DNA of 64,000 nucleotides. Origin: Clostridia bacterium UC5.1-1C12. GTDB taxonomy: Bacteria > Bacillota_I > Bacilli_A > Erysipelotrichales > Erysipelotrichaceae. The stretch lies in assembly GCA_001305055.1 (NCBI GenBank), contig BBZX01000009.1, forward strand, positions 1-64,000, given 5' to 3'. The translations under genes were made by a program, and so were the position numbers. The notes below the pieces were generated by a model. It saw nothing but the letters and a program-made list of their open reading frames with translations. It was not told the DNA's origin and did no database searches. This document shows, piece by piece, positions 54,152 to 64,000 of the stretch; the stretch's first letter is position 1; every line of letters begins with the position of its first letter.

Positions 54152-55659
54152 ATGAGAAAGTTAAAACAGAAAATTAATGAAGCATTGGCTTCGGTAATTC
54201 CGATTACCTTGATTGTCTTTTTATTAAGTATTACCATCGCACCGCTGCCGCTGGGCATGATGCTGATGTTTTTGGCAGGGGCCTTGCTGCTGGTTGCCGG
54301 CATGGGCTTCTTTGCGTTGGGTGCGGAGCTGTCGATGATGCCGATCGGTGAAGGGGCAGGCAGTGAATTGGTTAAAGCCCGGCGTTTGCCGATCATGATT
54401 CTAGTGACCTTTGCGATGGGTGTGATTATTACGGCTGCGGAACCGGATTTAACGGTATTAGCACATCAAGTACCGGCAGTTCCGGACAGTATTTTGATTT
54501 GGACAGTGGCCGCGGGTGTAGGTATTTTTCTAGTTTTGGCATTGCTGAGAACAATCTTTAAACTCAAGCTGAACTATATGCTGCTGATTTTATATGCGGC
54601 AGTCTTTATCCTAGCTTATTTTACGCCTGACAGCTTTTTGGCTGTTGCTTTTGACAGCGGCGGTGTGACTACCGGTCCAATTACCGTACCTTTTATCATG
54701 GCATTGGGTATCGGTCTGGCTCGTTTCAATGATGAAGCACATTCGCAGGAAGAAAGCTTTGGCTTAGTCGCGCTGTGTTCCATTGGTCCTATCCTGGCGG
54801 TGTTGATATTAGGTATTCTTTATCATCCTGAGGGTGTCAGCTATACACCTTTTGAGATGGTTCATGTTGAAACGACACAAGATGTCTTTAAAACCTTTAT
54901 GGCAGAAATACCGCATACAATCCTTGAAGTAGGTAAAGCGCTGGGTCCGATTTTAATCTTCTTCTGCCTGTTTCAGTGCGTAACCCGCTGTTTTTTTAAA
55001 CGTCAGTTAGTCAAAATTATCATCGGTACAATTTATACATTTATCGGTCTTGTTTTATTTCTGTGCGGCGTAAATGTCGGTTTTATGCCGGCAGGCAGTT
55101 ATCTGGCGCCCAAATTGTCACGCTGCCTTATGCGTGGGTTTTGATACCGATCGGCATGGTCATCGGCTATTTTATCGTAAAGGCTGAACCGGCCGTTCAT
55201 GTGCTCAAGGAACAGGTGGCAGAAATTTCGGCGGGAACGATTTCGGCACGGGCGATGGAGCTTTCTTTATCAATTGGTGTGGCCTTGTCCTTAGGCATTG
55301 CGATGCTGCGTATTTTAAGCGGGATCAATATTATGTTTTTCCTGCTACCCGGCTATGCGCTTTCTTTGCTTTTGAGTTTTTATGTACCGGAAATTTTTAC
55401 GGCTATTGCTTTTGACAGCGGCGGTGTTGCCAGCGGTCCGATGACAGCGACATTTTTGCTGCCTTTTGCGATGGGAGCCTGTGAAGCCATCGGCGGTAAT
55501 GTTTTAACCGATGCGTTTGGTATCGTCGCCCTTGTAGCAATGACACCGCTGTTGACGATTCAGCTTTTGGGATTGATGATGAAGCTGAAACAGCGTGAGC
55601 TAAAGCTGGATTTAGAGGGTGAAGATCAGATTATAGAGTTTGAGGAGGCTGAACTATGA
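54152..55659 (+). CDS. DUF1538 family membrane protein (one frameshift)
   Basis: About 502 aa corrected, with roughly fourteen hydrophobic segments in two homologous halves. Each half carries the DUF1538 signature: FDSGGVTTGPITVPFIMALG in the first and FDSGGVASGPMTATFLLPFA in the second. The internal duplication and the Ser/Gly/Pro-rich turns suggest a transporter or channel. One G is missing near 55108; corrected, it reads GAQIVTLPYAWVLIPIG. ATG 54152 with GAGGTGAC upstream. The stop overlaps the start of a P-II-like gene, so the two products probably interact. Substrate unknown. Confidence 0.86.
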
Positions 55660-56318
55660 GCAAAGCGACTGTAAAATGTATGGTACTGATCGTTAATCGT
55701 GATCAGGGAAATCGAATCGGCAGTATCTGCCATCAGCATCAGCTGTATTTTTCTTATGCGTGTATGGCCTCAGGCACTGCCGGCAGTGAGTATTTGAATT
55801 ATCTCGGTCTGGGAGAAACGGAAAAAGAGCTTGTATTTACTTTTGCGCCTGCCCATATTCTTGCATCACTTCAAAAGGCAATTGCAGCGGCAATTCATAT
55901 TGAAAAACCAAACAGCGGGATTATTTTTACCATGCCGCTGAGCAGTATCAGCAGTTTATTTTTAAAAAATATCATGCTTAATCATGACAAGGAGACAGTG
56001 TCTATGGAAGAAGGGAAATATGCTTTAATTTGCGCAGTTGTAAACAAAGGCTGTCAGGAGTTAGTGATGGCAGAAGCTAGAAAGGCCGGGGCAGAGGGCG
56101 GTACATTGCTGCATGCACGATCATTAGACAGTGAAGCCAGTCAGTCATTTATGGGCCTGGCGGTTCAAGCGGAAAAGGATGTGATTCTGATTCTGAGCAC
56201 GGCTGATAAGAAACAGGCTATTATGGAAGCAATCAACCAGACCTGCGGCTTGAAGAGTGAGGCTGGCGGCTGTTTGTTTGCGCTGCCTGTCGATAGTGTG
56301 CTTGGCTGTAACTGTTAA
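55656..56318 (+). CDS. Tandem P-II-like regulatory protein
   Basis: 220 aa containing two diverged P-II folds in tandem: about 5-100 (KCMVLIVNRDQGNRIGSICH, ending IIFTMPLSSIS) and about 118-215 (YALICAVVNKGCQELVMAEA, GGCLFALPVDSVLG). Canonical uridylylation Tyr and the TRG/GRGK-type T-loop features are not evident. P-II proteins bind ATP/ADP, 2-oxoglutarate, cAMP or similar ligands and plug or gate membrane transporters (GlnK-AmtB, SbtB-SbtA). Overlap with DUF1538 (4 bases) points to control of that membrane protein. Ends in NC residues, GCNC. Confidence 0.8.
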   Translation: MSKATVKCMVLIVNRDQGNRIGSICHQHQLYFSYACMASGTAGSEYLNYLGLGETEKELVFTFAPAHILASLQKAIAAAIHIEKPNSGIIFTMPLSSISSLFLKNIMLNHDKETVSMEEGKYALICAVVNKGCQELVMAEARKAGAEGGTLLHARSLDSEASQSFMGLAVQAEKDVILILSTADKKQAIMEAINQTCGLKSEAGGCLFALPVDSVLGCNC

Positions 56319-56323
56319 TAAGC

Positions 56324-56352
56324 TTGATTGATTTAGCTGTTTATGCTAGAAT
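56324..56352 (+). promoter_or_regulatory. Promoter of the fluoride riboswitch transcript
   Basis: -35 TTGATT (56324-56329), 17 bp, extended -10 TGC-TAGAAT (56347-56352), seven bases before the aptamer begins. Confidence 0.72.
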
Positions 56353-56357
56353 AATAA

Positions 56358-56448
56358 TTGGGAATGAAGTTCTCCCTCGGAATAAACCGAAACCGCGTAA
56401 AGCTGATGACTTCTGCAACATTTTTGTTGTGGATCATCAGCTTTTTTT
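56358..56448 (+). ncRNA. Fluoride riboswitch (crcB motif) with terminator platform
   Basis: The aptamer shows P1 and loop GGGAATGAAGTTCTCCC, the AAACCGAAACCGC joining region and GCTGATGACTTCTGC, matching the crcB consensus. GCTGATGA (56402-56409) also pairs with TCATCAGC (56434-56441), followed by seven T residues, giving a terminator that competes with the aptamer. Fluoride binding should therefore switch on the downstream antiporter. Ligand class is established; switching is inferred from overlap. Confidence 0.88.
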
Positions 56449-56463
56449 GAAAGGGGATTAATT

Positions 56464-57641
56464 ATGTTAACAAGCTTAGCTTTACTTTTTATTGTCGGTA
56501 TATTTGCCGGCTCAGCGGCTGAAAAGCTGCATCTGCCTGCATTGTTTGGCATGCTTCTTGCAGGGATTTTGCTGGGACCTTCGGCTTGCAGCTGCTTAGT
56601 GATTCACTGCTGTCCATCTCGGCTGATTTAAGACAGCTTGCATTGGTGATTATTTTGCTGAGAGCGGGTCTGTCATTAGATATTAATGATTTAAAAAGAG
56701 TGGGCCGGCCGGCAATCCTGATGTGTTTTTTGCCTGCTTGCTTTGAAATTGCCGCCATGGTGCTGATCGCGCCGCGCATCTTCAATATTACGGTCATTGA
56801 AGCAGCCTTGCTGGGCAGTGTTGTCGGCGCTGTTTCACCCGCTGTCATAGTGCCTAAAATGCTGAAGCTTATGGAAAGTGGTTATGGCAGCGATAAGAGT
56901 ATTCCGCAGCTGCTTCTGGCTGGCGCTTCCGTCGACGATGTGTTTGTGATCGTATTATTTTCCATTTTCACATCATTAGCGGCCGGCGGTACTGTGACTC
57001 TGCTCAGTTTTGCCGATATTCCCGTCTCTATTCTTTTAGGCATACTGACAGGCTGTTTGAGCGGCTGGCTGCTGCAGTGGCTCTTAAAATGGGTTAAATC
57101 TGAGCCCTATCAAGTCTTGCTTGTCCTAAGTGCTGCATTGCTGCTGTGTGGATTGGAAAATATCTTAAAGGGACGGGTGGCACTTTCTGGTTTATTGGCG
57201 GTAATGAGTATGGGGATCACCCTTCAAAAATGCTCACCAAATCATGCCAAAACTCTGCCGCCCATTTTCTCAACATTATGGAAAGGCGGAGAGATCATGC
57301 TTTTTGTCTTAGTCGGCGCGGCTGTAAATATCAATTATGCGGCAGCAGCTGGCTTACCTGCTGTCTTCCTGATAGTCTGTGTGCTGGCAATTCGTATGCT
57401 GGGCGTGGCCTGCTGTCTATTCAAAAGTGATCTAAGCAGCCGTGAGCGTCTTTTCTGCATGATTGCTTATACGCCAAAAGCCACCGTTCAGGCAGCAATC
57501 GGCTCAATTCCGCTGGCGATGGGTTTGGCATGCGGAGAATTGGTTCTAACAATCGCGGTATTATCTATCTTGATTACAGCCCCTTTAGGTGCCTTTATGA
57601 TTGATTTGACTTATTCTAAACTGCTTCAGCATACTTCCTGA
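56464..57641 (+). CDS. Cation:proton antiporter linked to fluoride riboswitch (one frameshift)
   Basis: About 392 aa corrected, CPA-type antiporter with about twelve helices. Begins LALLFIVGIFAGSAAEKLHL and contains GSVVGAVSPAVIVPKML and the central acidic pair GASVDDVFVIVLF. One G is missing near 56582, where SACSCLVIH is really SGLQLLSDS. ATG 56464 with AAAGGGG upstream. Such antiporters are a known class of fluoride-riboswitch-controlled genes and may export fluoride or relieve the pH and ion stress it causes. Ion specificity cannot be read from the sequence. Confidence 0.87.
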
Positions 57642-57708: not shown

Positions 57709-58572
57709 ATGATTAAATGGATCGTAACCGATATGGATGGGACCTTACTGAACAGTAAGGATCAAATCAGCAGCCGCAATAAAGCGGTATTAATGAAATG
57801 TCAGCAGCAGGGAATCAAGCTGATTCTGGCCAGCGGCCGCAGTCAGTACCGGCTTTATCCTTATGCGGAAGCATTGGATATGAAAAAATATGATGGCTAT
57901 TTTATCGAGGTCAACGGGATGGCATACCGTCATCTGCAAAGCAATGAACGAGTTTTATTTAAACGGCTGAATCATAATCAGATCGTTACTATTTTTAATG
58001 AACTGAAAAATATGCCGGCGAGATTCAGTGTTATCTTGATGATTCAATCTATATGGCGATGACGCTTGGGTTTTGCGCAACAGAAGGAACGAAAAAGACT
58101 GCAGCTGCCGGATGATTATCCATGGACTGGCGGTGCCTGGGGCTGGCTTGGTGATACCCGCAACGGATATCCATATATTCATTGGGTGTATTCAGCCGCT
58201 CAGCTGCCATGGGAATTAAATAAAATAACATTTATGCGTGAGCCGGAATATGTCACTTCCATTATGGCAGAGCTGAGTGAGCGATTTGCGGATTGTGAAT
58301 TAGTGCGACCAGTTCCCAGAGCAATCGAATTTTCACCCAAGGGAATTACGAAAGGCAGCTGTCTTGAAAAACTGATGAAGGATGAAAACATCGGTGTTGA
58401 TGAAGTACTGGTGATAGGTGATGGTGAAAATGATATCGATATGTTTTCTAAGGTAAAATATTCCATAGCTATGGGTAATGCGGAGTCCTATGTTAAAGCG
58501 GAGGCGTATGATCTGACTTTAAGCAATGATGAGGATGGCGTAGCAGCCGCTATTGAAAAATACTGCTTTTAA
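57709..58572 (+). CDS. HAD-superfamily Cof-type phosphatase (two indels)
   Basis: About 287 aa. Motif I TDMDGTLLNS with nucleophile Asp, motif II LASGR, and motif III/IV LVIGDGENDIDMFSKVKYSI. The cap lies in between. The frame is disturbed near 58021-58024 (one T missing: RFQCYLDDSIYMAM) and restored near 58067-58069 (one G too many), so both ends share a frame with a stop between. Cof-type enzymes dephosphorylate sugar phosphates, flavin or PLP precursors; no substrate is evident. No clear operon partner. Confidence 0.82.
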
Positions 58573-59420: not shown

Positions 59421-59493
59421 CTGCAATTTTTAAACAATTCAAAATTGCAGTTACTTTACATGTTTTTGCAATTTGTTAGAATTAAAACAAATT
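59421..59493 (+). promoter_or_regulatory. Inverted repeats upstream of the BglG/SFCGS operon
   Basis: A perfect 10-bp repeat CTGCAATTTT-N10-AAAATTGCAG (59421-59450) is followed by AATTTGTT-N8-AACAAATT (59470-59493). The block TGCAATTT recurs three times. These could be the operator of the operon, or an RNA antiterminator/terminator pair for a BglG-type protein, although no T run follows the first. Confidence 0.5.
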
Positions 59494-59549
59494 AAATCCC
59501 TGTTAAAATGAAAATGTAACAGGAGCAATTGAAAGAAGGGATGACTGAC

Positions 59550-61448
59550 GTGAAGCTTCAATTAAAAAACCGCCAGATCGAAATATTAAAAAATCTGATT
59601 GCTGCTGGCACACCGATGGATATAACGGTATTGATGAATCGCTTTGGCAAAAGTGAACGAACGATTCGCTATGATTTGAATGAGATTCGTGAAGCGCTTG
59701 AGAAGCAGGGGATCGATGTGAGGACAAAGGCTAAAAAGGGGTTTTATATCCCCGCAGAGCAAAAGCCCAAGGCCAGCCGCATCATTGCTGAAAACGGTCA
59801 GCAAGAGGAGCCGTCATTGCTGGATGATTCCGATGAAACAAGGAATAATTCGATGCTGCTTTATCTGATGCTGCAAAGCAAGCCAATCAGCGCCGATGAG
59901 ATTGCCGATACTTTCTATATTTCACGTTCAACCGCAATTCGTATTCTGAATAATTTAGAAGCGGCTTTCAGCGGTATCCGCATCAATTCACAAAAGGCTT
60001 ATGGCTATCAGCTAGAAGCTGAGGAATTTATGCTGCGAAAGATTGTGACACAGCTATTGGTAAGTGCATTTAAAGGCAGCTATACACCGGAAGATTGGTA
60101 TTTGCTGCTGCCGCGTATCCTTAAGGAAGAGATTTCAATGCTGACCATCAGCGATGTCTCACAGGCAATCAAAAAGGTGAACACACATTATAATGTTTGG
60201 CTCTCCAATACGGCTTTTATCAATCTGCTGAGCTATTGTCTGATTCGCGATCTGCGGCTGCGCAAGGGCTTTACTCAAAACGATCAAAAGGCAGTCGGCA
60301 GTGATTATACAATGGCGCTGCTTCAGGAGCTTGGCAACCGCGGTATCAATACATTGGAAGTTCAATGGATGAATACGATTTTAAATTCTAACGGTATCTT
60401 TGTAAATCAAAGCTGTCTGGATCTGGATGAATTGGATCACGCGCTTGATGAGATGCTTGAACTGCTGAAAGCGGATAAGCACCATCTGCCTTATGTCTTT
60501 GATACGATTACCTTATATGATGATCTGTATGAGCATCTCCAGCATACGATCAGTAAAGAATATCTGCATCTTGAAAATGATGAGAATCCATTGATCGAAG
60601 AATTGAAAGAAAATTACGCGGATTTTTATTTATTAGCTAATGATTTTGCGGACATCTTTGAAAAACATTTTTTGATGAAGCCTTCTGAGAATGAAATCAG
60701 TTATCTGGCAATTTATCTTTATAAGAATCTGATCAATCAGACAGCAAGCAACAAAAAGGTTTTGGTCGTCTGTGCGACAGGCAAGGGGTTAAGCAACCTG
60801 CTGACAACCCGTATCCGCAATGTGTTTCAGAATTTGACGATTGTCGGTTCGGTATCTCCTTATCAGCTTGACAATATCAATTTGTGGAAGGATATCGATT
60901 TTGTGATATCAACGATTCCAATCGCGCATTCGGCTTATCCGGTCATTAAGATTTCCAGGATTTTATCGATGGAAGATATTCAGCGGATACAAGAATTTCT
61001 GCATTATGGGAAATTCATTGATTCTATTCCAATGGATCACAGTAATTCGGCTTCCTTTAATGCTAAGAATGATCCCTTTGATTTATATAAGGATGAGCTT
61101 GATCCAAGCAAGACTGATTTGGCGGCGGCTTCGACCTTATACAGTAAGCTGCAGCTGACCCTGCTTGAATATATCAGCAAGCTGCCTCCTGAGGTTTCAA
61201 TGGGTCAGGATGCGGTACTCGGTATGCTGATTCATATGAGTATGGCAGTGCCTCGCTGGTTTTCTCAGCAGAATGAAGAAGATGAAGAAGAAATTATTGA
61301 GGCTTATTATAAATACCGCGATGAACAGAGTAATGTGTTTGATTTAATGGAAAAATTTTTCGCTCTCGTTGAGGAAAGCTTATTGATTACAATTCCGATT
61401 CATGAGCGATATGCATTTTTCCTCTATATATTCAACAAGGAGGTTTGA
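59550..61448 (+). CDS. BglG-type PRD transcriptional regulator
   Basis: About 632 aa from GTG 59550, chosen because AAGAAGGG lies 9 bases upstream; ATG 59541 and TTG 59529 are alternatives. Two HTH blocks (FGKSERTIRYDLNEIRE and FYISRSTAIRILNNLE), PRD-like helical regions (YLAIYLYKNLINQ), a IIB-like domain with Cys in LVVCATGKGLSNLL, and a C-terminal segment (MLIHMSMAVPRW, IPIHERYAFFLYIF) that looks like another PRD and not a IIA domain. Regulated by PTS phosphorylation in known relatives. First gene of the terminal operon, followed after 3 bases by the amidohydrolase. Confidence 0.87.
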   Translation: MKLQLKNRQIEILKNLIAAGTPMDITVLMNRFGKSERTIRYDLNEIREALEKQGIDVRTKAKKGFYIPAEQKPKASRIIAENGQQEEPSLLDDSDETRNNSMLLYLMLQSKPISADEIADTFYISRSTAIRILNNLEAAFSGIRINSQKAYGYQLEAEEFMLRKIVTQLLVSAFKGSYTPEDWYLLLPRILKEEISMLTISDVSQAIKKVNTHYNVWLSNTAFINLLSYCLIRDLRLRKGFTQNDQKAVGSDYTMALLQELGNRGINTLEVQWMNTILNSNGIFVNQSCLDLDELDHALDEMLELLKADKHHLPYVFDTITLYDDLYEHLQHTISKEYLHLENDENPLIEELKENYADFYLLANDFADIFEKHFLMKPSENEISYLAIYLYKNLINQTASNKKVLVVCATGKGLSNLLTTRIRNVFQNLTIVGSVSPYQLDNINLWKDIDFVISTIPIAHSAYPVIKISRILSMEDIQRIQEFLHYGKFIDSIPMDHSNSASFNAKNDPFDLYKDELDPSKTDLAAASTLYSKLQLTLLEYISKLPPEVSMGQDAVLGMLIHMSMAVPRWFSQQNEEDEEEIIEAYYKYRDEQSNVFDLMEKFFALVEESLLITIPIHERYAFFLYIFNKEV

Positions 61449-61451
61449 CAC

Positions 61452-62588
61452 ATGTTGGAACTACTGATTAAGAATGGCAGTCTGCTGAGTCCGGTCAATG
61501 GTTATCATCAGGAAGTAATGGATATCCTGCTGAAAAACGGCCGTATTGAAAAAATCGCACCGCATATTGAAGCAGAAAATGCTGACGTGATTGATGCTTC
61601 CGGCTGTTTAGTAACACCGGGTCTGATTGATATTCATGTGCATTGTTTCCCACAATGTTCACTGGGTATTGAACCTGATGTATTGGGTATTCAGCGCGGG
61701 GCAACGACGATCCTTGATGCTGGCAGCAGCGGTGCTTTGAATTATGAGACTTTCCGCAGTGAGTATATTGACCGCTGCAAAACAAAGGTCTTTACTTTGC
61801 TGAATGTCTCTAAGCTGGGGCTGGCTGAACCGCATGAGCTTGATGATCTGAATAAAATTGATCGGGAAGCGCTGAAGGCGGCGGCGGCCAAATATCCGGA
61901 TAACATTGTTGGTTTGAAGGCCAGGGCCAGTGCCAGTGTGGTTGGCGCCATGGGGTTTGAACCGATTCGTCTGGCGGCTGAAATCGCTCATGAGGTTAAG
62001 CTGCCGCTGATGGTTCATGTCGGGAATTATCCGCCGGCCTTAAAGGATGTGCTGAATGTACTTGAAGCCGGTGATATCGTGACACATGCTTATCATGGCA
62101 AAAAGGGCGGTATCTTAAATGCTGACGGTACGATTATTGAGGAAGCGCTGAACGCACGCAGACGCGGTGTTCTCTTCGATATCGGACATGGGGTCGCAAG
62201 CTTTAGCTTTAAAACTTTTAAACAGGCGATGACGCAGAACTTTGACTGTGATTTGATTTCAACCGATCTGCATGTGGAGAATTATCAAGGCCCGGTATAC
62301 AATCTGGCGGCGGTACTTTCAAAACTGCTGAATTGCGGTGAATCACTTGAAGATGTTATCAGTAAGGCAACCAGTGTTCCCGCCAAACATTATCAGCTGA
62401 AGGGACTGGGAGAATTGAAAGAAGGCTTTATCGGTGATGTATCCGTAATGAAGCTGAGTGACTGTGATGAAGCGGTTGTGGATTCTATCGGCGATTCATT
62501 AACACTGAAGCAGCGGCTGACTTTAGTCAATACGATTTATAGCAGGGGGGATGAAATTGAAGTATTTAGACACGATACTGACCAATAG
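61452..62588 (+). CDS. Amidohydrolase/deacetylase family metallohydrolase (TIGR03583-like)
   Basis: 378 aa. Amidohydrolase TIM barrel with metal ligands in GLIDIHVHCFP, the carboxylated Lys in VGLKARASAS, His in LMVHVGNYPP and VTHAYHGKKGG, and Asp in LISTDLHVEN. It matches the EF_0837-like family, once labelled adenine deaminase, in which deacetylation of an amino-sugar-type compound is a frequent suggestion. Followed by PRD, SFCGS, DUF4312 and DUF4311 genes, as in Enterococcus and Aeromonas. The C-terminus overlaps the PRD gene by 38 bases. Confidence 0.88.
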   Translation: MLELLIKNGSLLSPVNGYHQEVMDILLKNGRIEKIAPHIEAENADVIDASGCLVTPGLIDIHVHCFPQCSLGIEPDVLGIQRGATTILDAGSSGALNYETFRSEYIDRCKTKVFTLLNVSKLGLAEPHELDDLNKIDREALKAAAAKYPDNIVGLKARASASVVGAMGFEPIRLAAEIAHEVKLPLMVHVGNYPPALKDVLNVLEAGDIVTHAYHGKKGGILNADGTIIEEALNARRRGVLFDIGHGVASFSFKTFKQAMTQNFDCDLISTDLHVENYQGPVYNLAAVLSKLLNCGESLEDVISKATSVPAKHYQLKGLGELKEGFIGDVSVMKLSDCDEAVVDSIGDSLTLKQRLTLVNTIYSRGDEIEVFRHDTDQ

Positions 62589-62934
62589 TGATGTCAGTGT
62601 GGAAGTAAGCGAAGAAATCGTACGCTGTATGAAGCAGGTCGATGATAAGCTTAAGCAGTTAAAGATTGAATTCAGTGATGAGAATGCGGAAATGGTGTTT
62701 ACGAATCATTTAGTAGCACTTACGAAACGTATTTTGAGTAAGGAATTTATTCCGGATCTTGATGATTCACTGATGGAAGGTGTTTCTTTACAGGCTATGC
62801 AGCTTTCAGAAGAATTGGTGAAGGAGCTGTTTGAAAGTCATGGCTGTGAAGTAAATAAATCAGAGTTATTTTTAGTAGCTACTCATATTCAATTATATCT
62901 CGAAAACAGAAAGGATGGGAAAAACAATGAGTAA
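62551..62934 (+). CDS. Stand-alone PRD domain protein (TIGR03582-like)
   Basis: 127 aa made almost entirely of one PTS-regulation domain, with His residues in VFTNHLVALTKRIL and LVATHIQLYLENR at the expected phospho-acceptor positions. No DNA- or RNA-binding domain. GGGGGG ends directly at ATG 62551. Such single PRD proteins of the EF_0829 type occur only with this gene set (family knowledge). May modulate the BglG-type regulator or act as a phosphate-accepting sensor. Overlaps the SFCGS gene by 8 bases. Confidence 0.83.
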   Translation: MKLKYLDTILTNSDVSVEVSEEIVRCMKQVDDKLKQLKIEFSDENAEMVFTNHLVALTKRILSKEFIPDLDDSLMEGVSLQAMQLSEELVKELFESHGCEVNKSELFLVATHIQLYLENRKDGKNNE

Positions 62935-63292
62935 AGAAATTTTAGTAGTAATCGGTCATCGCATGGGTAAAGGCCAGGCGGTAGCCAGAGGTGTTGAAAA
63001 GGCAGGCGGTAAGGCAATCGTTATTCCAGGCATGGCAGCGGATATGAAATTAGGCGATGTGATGCATGAAAATAATGCCGATTTAGGGATCAGCTTCTGC
63101 GGCAGCGGCGGTGCTGGTGCTTTGACAGCCCAAAATAAATATGGCTATAAGGCTAAATCTGAGCTGCGTTCAATTGAAGCTGCCTGTACAGCTGTTGAAG
63201 ATGGCTGCAAGGTAGTCGGACTGGGCTTCATGGATGTGGAAGACTTAGGTCAAAGACTTGTGGAAACATACCGTAAAGTACACGGAGAGTAG
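62927..63292 (+). CDS. SFCGS family glycine-rich protein (TIGR03577-like)
   Basis: 121 aa soluble protein. Contains the eponymous ISFCGSGGAGALTAQNKYGY near residues 53-72, after EILVVIGHRMGKGQAVARGV. The Cys/Gly/Ser loop after a beta strand resembles, at the level of pattern, the phospho-Cys loop of PTS IIB proteins, but the homology is unproven. ATG 62927 is chosen over an earlier in-frame start inside the PRD gene. Part of the EF_0830-type operon of unknown function. Confidence 0.88.
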   Translation: MSKEILVVIGHRMGKGQAVARGVEKAGGKAIVIPGMAADMKLGDVMHENNADLGISFCGSGGAGALTAQNKYGYKAKSELRSIEAACTAVEDGCKVVGLGFMDVEDLGQRLVETYRKVHGE

Positions 63293-63294
63293 TC

Positions 63295-63594
63295 ATGAGC
63301 GAGCAGCTGCTGAAGGAGATGGATCATACAGTCACGGTGACAATGAGCGGTGACGGTATGGTTGATACGGTGGGGAAGATTTTTAATATGATGCGCAAGC
63401 AGGTATTCCAGGATATCAACAAGCCGATCATCCAGATGGATACTCAGGAAGTCTACTTTGACAAGGTGGATGTCACAGAAAAGAAGGAAGCTTTCCTGTT
63501 TATCTTCATGCCAAGAGTACGCCGTTATTACACGGTAACTGCCCGCATTATATTAAAGGTTAAATATTTAGATGTCCAAGAGGAGGATAAGTAA
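63295..63594 (+). CDS. DUF4312 family protein (TIGR03578-like)
   Basis: 99 aa soluble alpha/beta protein with no membrane segment (HTVTVTMSGDGMVDTVGKIF start; RVRRYYTVTARIILKVKYLD end). Recognised from its position and sequence as the EF_0831-type member of the SFCGS gene set. Two bases after the SFCGS stop and its own stop directly abuts the DUF4311 ATG, so all are translated together. Function unknown. Confidence 0.83.
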   Translation: MSEQLLKEMDHTVTVTMSGDGMVDTVGKIFNMMRKQVFQDINKPIIQMDTQEVYFDKVDVTEKKEAFLFIFMPRVRRYYTVTARIILKVKYLDVQEEDK

Positions 63595-64000
63595 ATGAAT
63601 GTCGAGGTTATACTTTATTCAGTAATTATTGGTGTTATCGGCGGCGGCTGTATCGCGGCCGGTGCTGCCAGAATGTTCCATGCACCTGAAATTCAGGCCA
63701 TGGGCGCATTCAGAACATTGGGAGAATTTAACGCATGTAACGGTGACCCGGTTGCCCATTTCTCATTCGGGTTAGGGTTCTTCTTCTCAGCTGCGGCTTC
63801 TGCGTTAGGTGCCGGTGCTTTATCAGGGGATGTATTCCATCGTATTGTACCAAACTGGGCGGCTGCCTCATTATTGGTTAAAAACCGTAATGTTGAGGAA
63901 ACGATTCAGAATCCGCGCAAAATGATGATGGCAGGTTCGGTAATCGGTGCTTTAATCGTTACCTTCCTTAATACAATGGCTACCATTATTCCGGAAAAGC
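63595..64000 (+). CDS. DUF4311 family membrane protein, cut by window end (TIGR03579-like)
   Basis: The first 135 residues of an integral membrane protein. The N-terminal helix is SVIIGVIGGGCIAAGAARMF, followed by FRTLGEFNACNGDPVAHFSF, a second helix and a third beginning GSVIGALIVTFLNT. It is the EF_0832-type member of the SFCGS set, and a DUF4310 gene is expected beyond the edge. Probably half of a transport channel; substrate unknown. GAGGAGG precedes ATG 63595. Confidence 0.87.
   Translation, partial: MNVEVILYSVIIGVIGGGCIAAGAARMFHAPEIQAMGAFRTLGEFNACNGDPVAHFSFGLGFFFSAAASALGAGALSGDVFHRIVPNWAAASLLVKNRNVEETIQNPRKMMMAGSVIGALIVTFLNTMATIIPEK

Follow-up and report, generated by a model that had tools for sequence, protein, structure and literature searches.

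How does an operon that carries two proteins with PTS regulation domains (PRD) and no recognizable permease of the phosphotransferase system (PTS) take up its substrate? The question is raised by the last six genes of a 64,000-nucleotide stretch of Clostridia bacterium UC5.1-1C12 (contig BBZX01000009.1, positions 1 to 64,000, the whole of which is called the window here). These encode, on the plus strand, a BglG/Mga-type regulator, an amidohydrolase, a stand-alone single-PRD protein, an SFCGS protein, a DUF4312 protein and a DUF4311 membrane protein. We think it quite possible, if short of probable, that a cassette of PRD, SFCGS, DUF4312, DUF4311 and DUF4310 is a PTS-type uptake system that replaces the Man-type permease of the Salmonella dga operon and imports and phosphorylates an N-acylated aminosugar acid. 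More tentatively, we suggest that it is a PTS permease in which the PRD serves as a IIA-like phosphocarrier, an RpiB-like protein takes the cysteine-carrying part of a IIB, and a homologous pair of membrane proteins, of undetected fold, forms the transporter.

In the scheme we propose, the five-gene cassette would perform PTS-type uptake with non-standard parts. A phosphoryl group would pass from phosphoenolpyruvate through enzyme I (EI) and HPr to a histidine of the stand-alone PRD, in a IIA-like role, and from there to the cysteine of SFCGS, in a IIB-like role on an RpiB-like fold, while DUF4311 and DUF4310 would transport the substrate, phosphorylated during entry. The substrate would be an N-acylated 2-amino-2-deoxy sugar acid resembling N-acetylglucosaminate. 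The amidohydrolase would then remove the acyl group, a DgaE-type lyase would release ammonia, and a DgaF-type aldolase would yield pyruvate and glyceraldehyde-3-phosphate. The phosphotransfer steps, the transport and the substrate are all things we infer. What we observe is the gene content, its conservation, the kinship of SFCGS with RpiB, a probable relationship between DUF4311 and DUF4310, and, in some genomes, PTS genes adjoining the operon.

The open reading frame (ORF) list and the sequence place all six genes as annotated, with neighbors overlapping or at most 3 bases apart, the tight packing that a first-pass annotation of this DNA describes; Pfam and NCBIfam bear out the identity of each gene. 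The amidohydrolase/deacetylase-like metallohydrolase of EF_0837 type (61452..62588) scores 400 bits against a PRK09237 cut-off of 371, and its nearest solved structure is 2ics, deposited as an adenine deaminase. DUF4312 (63295..63594) scores 58 bits against the PF14189 cut-off of 27. The first-pass annotation equated the set with families TIGR03577-03583. This stands insofar as the families are the same and SFCGS passes its NCBIfam cut-off (TIGR03577, 182 versus 141 bits), but the stand-alone PRD (TIGR03582, 40.5 versus 69.4), DUF4312 (TIGR03578, 44.7 versus 89.7) and the amidohydrolase (TIGR03583, 355 versus 432) fall below theirs; DUF4311, scored on a gene cut at the window end, reaches 190 against 301 for TIGR03580.

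What lies beyond position 64000 can be read in the Dielma fastidiosa type strain (L001), whose SFCGS is identical and whose DNA is 93.8% identical across 11 kb. There the operon continues with the full DUF4311 (239 aa), DUF4310 (215 aa), a DgaE-type lyase and a DgaF-type aldolase, as had been predicted for the downstream sequence, followed by a second DgaE-type gene and an Fe-type alcohol dehydrogenase. DUF4310 exceeds the TIGR03579 cut-off (218.5 versus 215.5), and the aldolase exceeds that of the DgaF family NF047796 (389 versus 300 bits). The lyase belongs to the DgaE family (TIGR01437, 469 versus 385 bits) and misses the strict D-glucosaminate-6-phosphate ammonia lyase equivalog NF047797 (463 versus 600 bits), so the substrate may differ from glucosaminate-6-phosphate.

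The feature is real and widespread. Our search of a genome collection kept the best 80 of 148 SFCGS relatives, and the locus set therefore leans to close relatives. With loci from plasmids and two more copies from Dielma added, it comprises 111 loci, all with SFCGS, which are not independent: L013/L127, L023/L186, L048/L169 and L069/L172 apparently come from the same genome in each case, and two Bartonella plasmids are near-identical. Chained to SFCGS are DUF4311 and DUF4312 (110/111 each), PRD, DUF4310 and the amidohydrolase (109/111 each), a DgaE-type gene (106/111), the regulator (105/111), a DgaF-type gene (104/111) and a lactonase (33/111), contig ends accounting for part of the missing genes. 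The frequent company of a DgaE-like lyase and a KDGP aldolase, noted at first pass, is thereby confirmed. Two loci have no PRD match of their own. As we read the chains, these are L184, where PRD and SFCGS form one ORF, and L187, where the ORF in the PRD position shows both histidine motifs by eye without a hidden Markov model (HMM) match. In a third Dielma copy (L126, contig C4), the cassette, regulator and amidohydrolase are present and the lyase and aldolase absent. Across phyla, SFCGS rises above its cut-off in 7/392 and 12/398 genomes of two phyla and DUF4311 in 7/398 genomes of a third, each sample including its center genome. Weak DUF4311 matches in three further genomes were judged to be chance, two falling in an MFS-like protein and one amid several stops.

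In Salmonella, according to the available parts of PMC9529869 and PMC4987338 (and again of PMC12066602), the Man-family PTS DgaABCD delivers D-glucosaminate-6-phosphate, which DgaE deaminates and whose product DgaF splits. PRD-SFCGS-DUF4312-DUF4311-DUF4310 takes the place of DgaABCD ahead of DgaE/DgaF-type genes, which supports a PTS-type uptake role. The amidohydrolase points to an N-acyl substrate, and the lactonase gene found at 33 of the loci to a sugar acid lactone. Alternatively, uptake may be PTS-regulated and not PTS-driven, with DUF4311 and DUF4310 working by ion-coupled or facilitated transport, PRD and HPr serving regulation or gating, and a kinase elsewhere phosphorylating the substrate, an account that we regard as possible and rather doubtful. 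The PfkB kinase inside the Enterococcus faecalis operon speaks for it. That is the single sugar kinase found in an operon chain among the 111 loci with one PfkB protein query, the one kinase family searched, and its absence from the other chains counts against this account.

The SFCGS gene (62915..63292, probable start 62927) scores 188 bits against the PF14272 cut-off of 27. Its Cys/Gly loop had been described as reminiscent of IIB. IIB homology does not hold, because sequence and profile matches lead to the RpiB/LacAB isomerases: the SFCGS and RpiB profiles align with an hhalign probability of 95.9% over 76 columns, FCGSGGAG falls on FCGTGLG when the sequences are aligned, and a PDB profile search returns LacB first at the matching residues, at an E value of only 0.16. 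The window protein itself matches the RpiB family PF02502 in Pfam at E 0.028, under the cut-off. Conversely, the phylum search yielded 26 genomes with only weak SFCGS matches, and the five ORFs scanned from these all proved to be RpiB proteins; each has a PF14272 match as well, at E 2e-6 to 8e-4, which in one case exceeds the SFCGS cut-off. Judged by these alignments, SFCGS is an RpiB/LacAB relative that has kept the loop cysteine, Cys58 (numbered from 62927; codon 63098-63100), which is invariant in 27/27 aligned proteins. A IIB-like role for it would be one of analogy only.

This kinship also opens the prospect that SFCGS is an RpiB-like isomerase or epimerase, possibly working with DUF4312 on a phosphorylated aminosugar acid, and that the transporter is separate. 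The retained catalytic cysteine loop favors such an enzyme. We consider it improbable, however, since the alignments show no SFCGS counterpart of the RpiB His-Asn motif or C-terminal Arg/His segment, which we take to be the catalytic and phosphate-binding elements. Moreover, SFCGS stays with the membrane proteins in L126, where DgaE and DgaF are absent, and the glucosaminate-6-phosphate route, as given in the available part of PMC9529869, needs no isomerase.

The putative phosphate donor to SFCGS in our scheme, the stand-alone PRD protein (62551..62934), scores 27.6 bits against the PF00874 cut-off of 23. An alignment of 29 stand-alone PRDs, including 5 from yhf operons, shows no variation at His53 (codon 62707-62709), Arg60 or Glu105, and at least 90% of the proteins keep His112 (codon 62884-62886). 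The invariance of His53 and of SFCGS Cys58 in the aligned rows supports a phosphotransfer role for the pair. The regulator (59529..61448) combines DNA-binding HTH, PRD and IIB domains (Pfam HTH_11, HTH_DeoR, Mga, PRD 318-398, PTS_IIB 410-487) and is thus a PRD-type transcription regulator. It had been proposed to end in a further PRD instead of a IIA domain, and this agrees with the C-terminal parts of Firmicutes regulators, which are PRD-like by hhalign (90.7% and 91.6%); Pfam finds no PRD in that part of the window protein. The one Bartonella regulator scanned bears EIIA_2, and a mostly proteobacterial set of C-termini has no PRD match (hhalign 0.4%). A 97% match between two regulator C-terminal sets was disregarded, since it probably arose from the presence of one genome in both, as L186 and as L023.

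The known regulatory roles of PRD proteins, and the presence of PRD and IIB or IIA domains in the regulator itself, fit the PTS-regulated account outlined above. Against it, loci with another kind of upstream regulator still have the stand-alone PRD. In three small genomes (0.8-1.5 Mb), which we take to be mollicutes that translate TGA as Trp, all three loci retain the PRD with both histidines, the upstream gene is RpiR-type (by Pfam in one, by length and sequence in two), and the regulator HMM finds no match in these stretches. A PRD is likewise present in yhf operons, where the regulator looks GntR-like by eye. Additionally, in one genome (G1067; L151/L184), PRD and SFCGS form a single chain of 249 aa that retains the two histidines and the cysteine. 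A further alternative, in which SFCGS binds incoming sugar phosphate and tunes PRD phosphorylation as feedback on the transporter or regulator, would explain why a loop of RpiB type, its catalytic set incomplete, occurs together with a PTS-responsive domain. We hold such a sensor to be very unlikely, as the pair is kept in loci with a different type of upstream regulator.

PTS input, first suspected from the PRD proteins, is backed by other genomes, in which HPr and EI genes adjoin the operon. The search used a Bartonella HPr-EI fusion as query, and four of the proteins were verified by Pfam. General PTS components adjoin the operon on the same strand in 8/111 loci, representing five Firmicutes genomes and two Bartonella plasmids. 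In L002, L005 and L008, HPr lies 11-23 bases 3' of DgaF; in L023 (the same genome as L186), it lies upstream of the regulator; in L185, HPr and EI lie downstream with a HAD gene intervening; and the near-identical Bartonella plasmids HY761 and HY406 carry an HPr-EI fusion 64 bases past the regulator. The gene tables of PLSDB, which are incomplete and cover the plasmid only, list no EII gene on HY761. Caballeronia has a homologue of the fused EI that is longer and adjoins ptsG. Contig ends cut L016 and L019, where a downstream HPr would be missed. Among 27 genomes examined, operon-linked HPr was seen in 5, against 0.05 expected by chance. Linkage occurs in 4/5 genomes that have 7 or more HPr genes and in 1/22 with fewer (Fisher p 0.0014, a value that ignores kinship and uses a cut-off of 7 picked after the counts were seen). 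Linked HPr and EI, the fused PRD-SFCGS chain, and the PRD kept without a PRD regulator together strengthen the case for a PTS-type system.

Several other matches were set aside or are of separate interest. On the Bartonella plasmid HY761 (L163/L166), the operon and HPr-EI are flanked on one side by plasmid maintenance genes that are duplicated and on the other by a type VI secretion cluster. In 16 proteobacterial loci (17 rows, L169 repeating L048; for example, L036 18733-19005), an NPr-like HPr homologue is encoded close to the operon end in the opposite orientation; it was not counted as support. PPDK-like matches of the EI query in L013/L127 were read as not EI and left uncounted.

The transporter would be formed by DUF4311 (63595..64000, cut by the window end; PF14188, 187 bits versus a cut-off of 27) and DUF4310. 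The two are probably distant homologues: hhalign scores the pair at 33.0, and 20 local column shuffles reach 16.2 at most, although the reported probability is only 22-41% and varies with build and settings. Above cut-off, both match only their own Pfam families and no recognized IIC family. In the three small genomes (L128-L130), an extra Lys/Gln-rich, coiled-coil-like ORF stands between the DUF4311 and DUF4310 genes, with 192 aa in L128, 297 aa in L129 and two pieces in L130, and the one tested has no Pfam match above cut-off.

A number of observations weigh against a PTS permease. No cassette protein matches a IIA, IIB or IIC family in Pfam; in particular, the stand-alone PRD matches PRD, and SFCGS matches its own family and, weakly, RpiB. 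AlphaFold2 models of DUF4311 and DUF4310, of middling quality, have no fold match at E <=0.001, a result that leaves known transporter families in play, and the best VIA rows, which are 6ivn (titled "a membrane protein") with DUF4311 and VMAT2 with DUF4310, do not rise above the noise expected of helical proteins. To our knowledge, PRD domains are known only as regulatory targets, and titles and abstract beginnings in the open literature, including the available part of PMC6615313, revealed no transport role for one. His112 is substituted in L162 and, by Tyr, in the L126 copy of Dielma. The PRD-SFCGS fusion is a single case whose DUF4311 carries an in-frame TAG, so it may be a sequencing or decay effect. 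In 22/27 genomes examined, no HPr lies beside the operon, and where it does it could serve regulation alone, because the regulator itself needs PTS phosphate. EI occurs in 30/30 SFCGS genomes tested versus 7/14 controls, which says little because all sampled groups are, as far as we can tell, PTS-bearing. A kinase elsewhere in the genome may phosphorylate the substrate. Finally, the first-pass remark that no classical IIC is visible holds here but not in E. faecalis (L164), whose operon adds a PTS_EIIC gene, MupG, the PfkB kinase and a 99-aa protein that matches nothing in Pfam at E 0.01, so that the catabolic part varies.

Because YhfU resembles SFCGS, we also searched for YhfT loci and found 14, with YhfU adjoining YhfT in 13. 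Six were read in wide context, the other eight being viewed for PRD in short flanks only. In five of the six (L156, L158, L159, L160 and L162), a PRD-like protein, YhfT, YhfU and a pyridoxal phosphate (PLP) enzyme occur together, in genes that we take to be those named YhfT, YhfU/DUF2620, YhfY-type PRD, YhfS and Php; in the sixth, L161 (G345), neither YhfU nor PRD is matched near the YhfT-family gene. Pfam was applied to the PLP enzyme in two operons and to the phosphotriesterase-type gene in one. Two of the five yhf PRD proteins exceed the Pfam PRD cut-off and three match weakly. YhfU aligns with RpiB at 62.9% in hhalign, over only 27 columns, and with SFCGS at 16.7%; its profile matches one SFCGS protein at E 8.7e-5, and of three YhfU proteins put to Pfam, one matches RpiB (E 0.045), one SFCGS (E 0.017) and the third neither. 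An impression by eye that YhfT is a fused DUF4311-DUF4310 was unsupported by hhalign in two builds (0.3-0.4%). The recurrence of the trio of PRD, RpiB-like cysteine protein and membrane protein in 5/6 contexts supports the proposed permease, the yhf/SFCGS parallel being no more than suggestive. The yhfTUY genes of E. coli type would then be a second branch of such PTS permeases.

If the proposal is right, group translocation has been built from unrelated parts, PRD domains have acquired a second job, and the orphan operons of the EF_0829 and E. coli yhf types become testable by standard phosphotransfer assays. It would also account for the feeding of commensals on aminosugar acids. The first-pass description of the operon as undescribed is partly right: the families are named in Pfam and NCBIfam and EF0839 is mentioned in print, but we found no paper on the function of SFCGS, DUF4312, DUF4311 or DUF4310, or under the TIGR or AHA names, in the open literature, subscription papers lying mostly outside it; going by titles and abstracts, the term SFCGS turned up only in unrelated senses. 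Among the yhfT/U/S/X/W/Y matches listed, titles and abstract beginnings gave no functional paper. In the available parts of two E. faecalis studies, a transposon sequencing report remarks that EF0839 is possibly linked to amino-sugar metabolism (PMC7701990), and EF0838/EF0839 appear in passing with a promoter induced in vivo, in urine (PMC2912369).

Upstream of the operon, some window genes differ from those of the type strain. A HAD-family (Hydrolase_3) gene at 57709-58572 is split into two ORFs where the type strain has a single 289-aa ORF, and the split may be a true lesion or an assembly error. A DUF1538 gene at 54152-55659 forms two overlapping ORFs versus one of 502 aa. In the region 55656-57641, a weak P-II-like protein is encoded between DUF1538 and a Na+/H+-exchanger-type gene, whose ORF has 351 aa versus 439 aa.

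Compared with the RpiB/LacAB isomerases, SFCGS shares the C-G-S/T-G loop and the surrounding segment, but is shorter, with neither the His-Asn motif nor the Arg/His segment of their C-terminus. The E. coli-type yhf operon differs in having a single 430-aa membrane protein without detectable DUF4311/DUF4310 kinship, other enzymes and no DUF4312 that we could find. It resembles the present operon in its stand-alone PRD-like protein, large membrane protein, PLP enzyme and metallohydrolase, and in YhfU, a small protein with an invariant cysteine and weak RpiB and SFCGS matches. The Enterococcus EF_0829-EF_0839 and Aeromonas AHA_3910-3917 operons (TIGR03577-03583) consist of the same gene families, though several window proteins fall below the NCBIfam cut-offs for that set. 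With Salmonella dgaABCDEF, as presented in the available parts of PMC9529869 and PMC4987338, the operon has in common a DgaE-family lyase, a DgaF-type aldolase, PRD-type regulation and a PTS link. It differs in its regulator, which is BglG/Mga-type instead of LevR-type, in an added amidohydrolase and, in 33/111 loci, a lactonase, and in bearing PRD, SFCGS, DUF4312, DUF4311 and DUF4310 where Salmonella has the components of a Man-family PTS.

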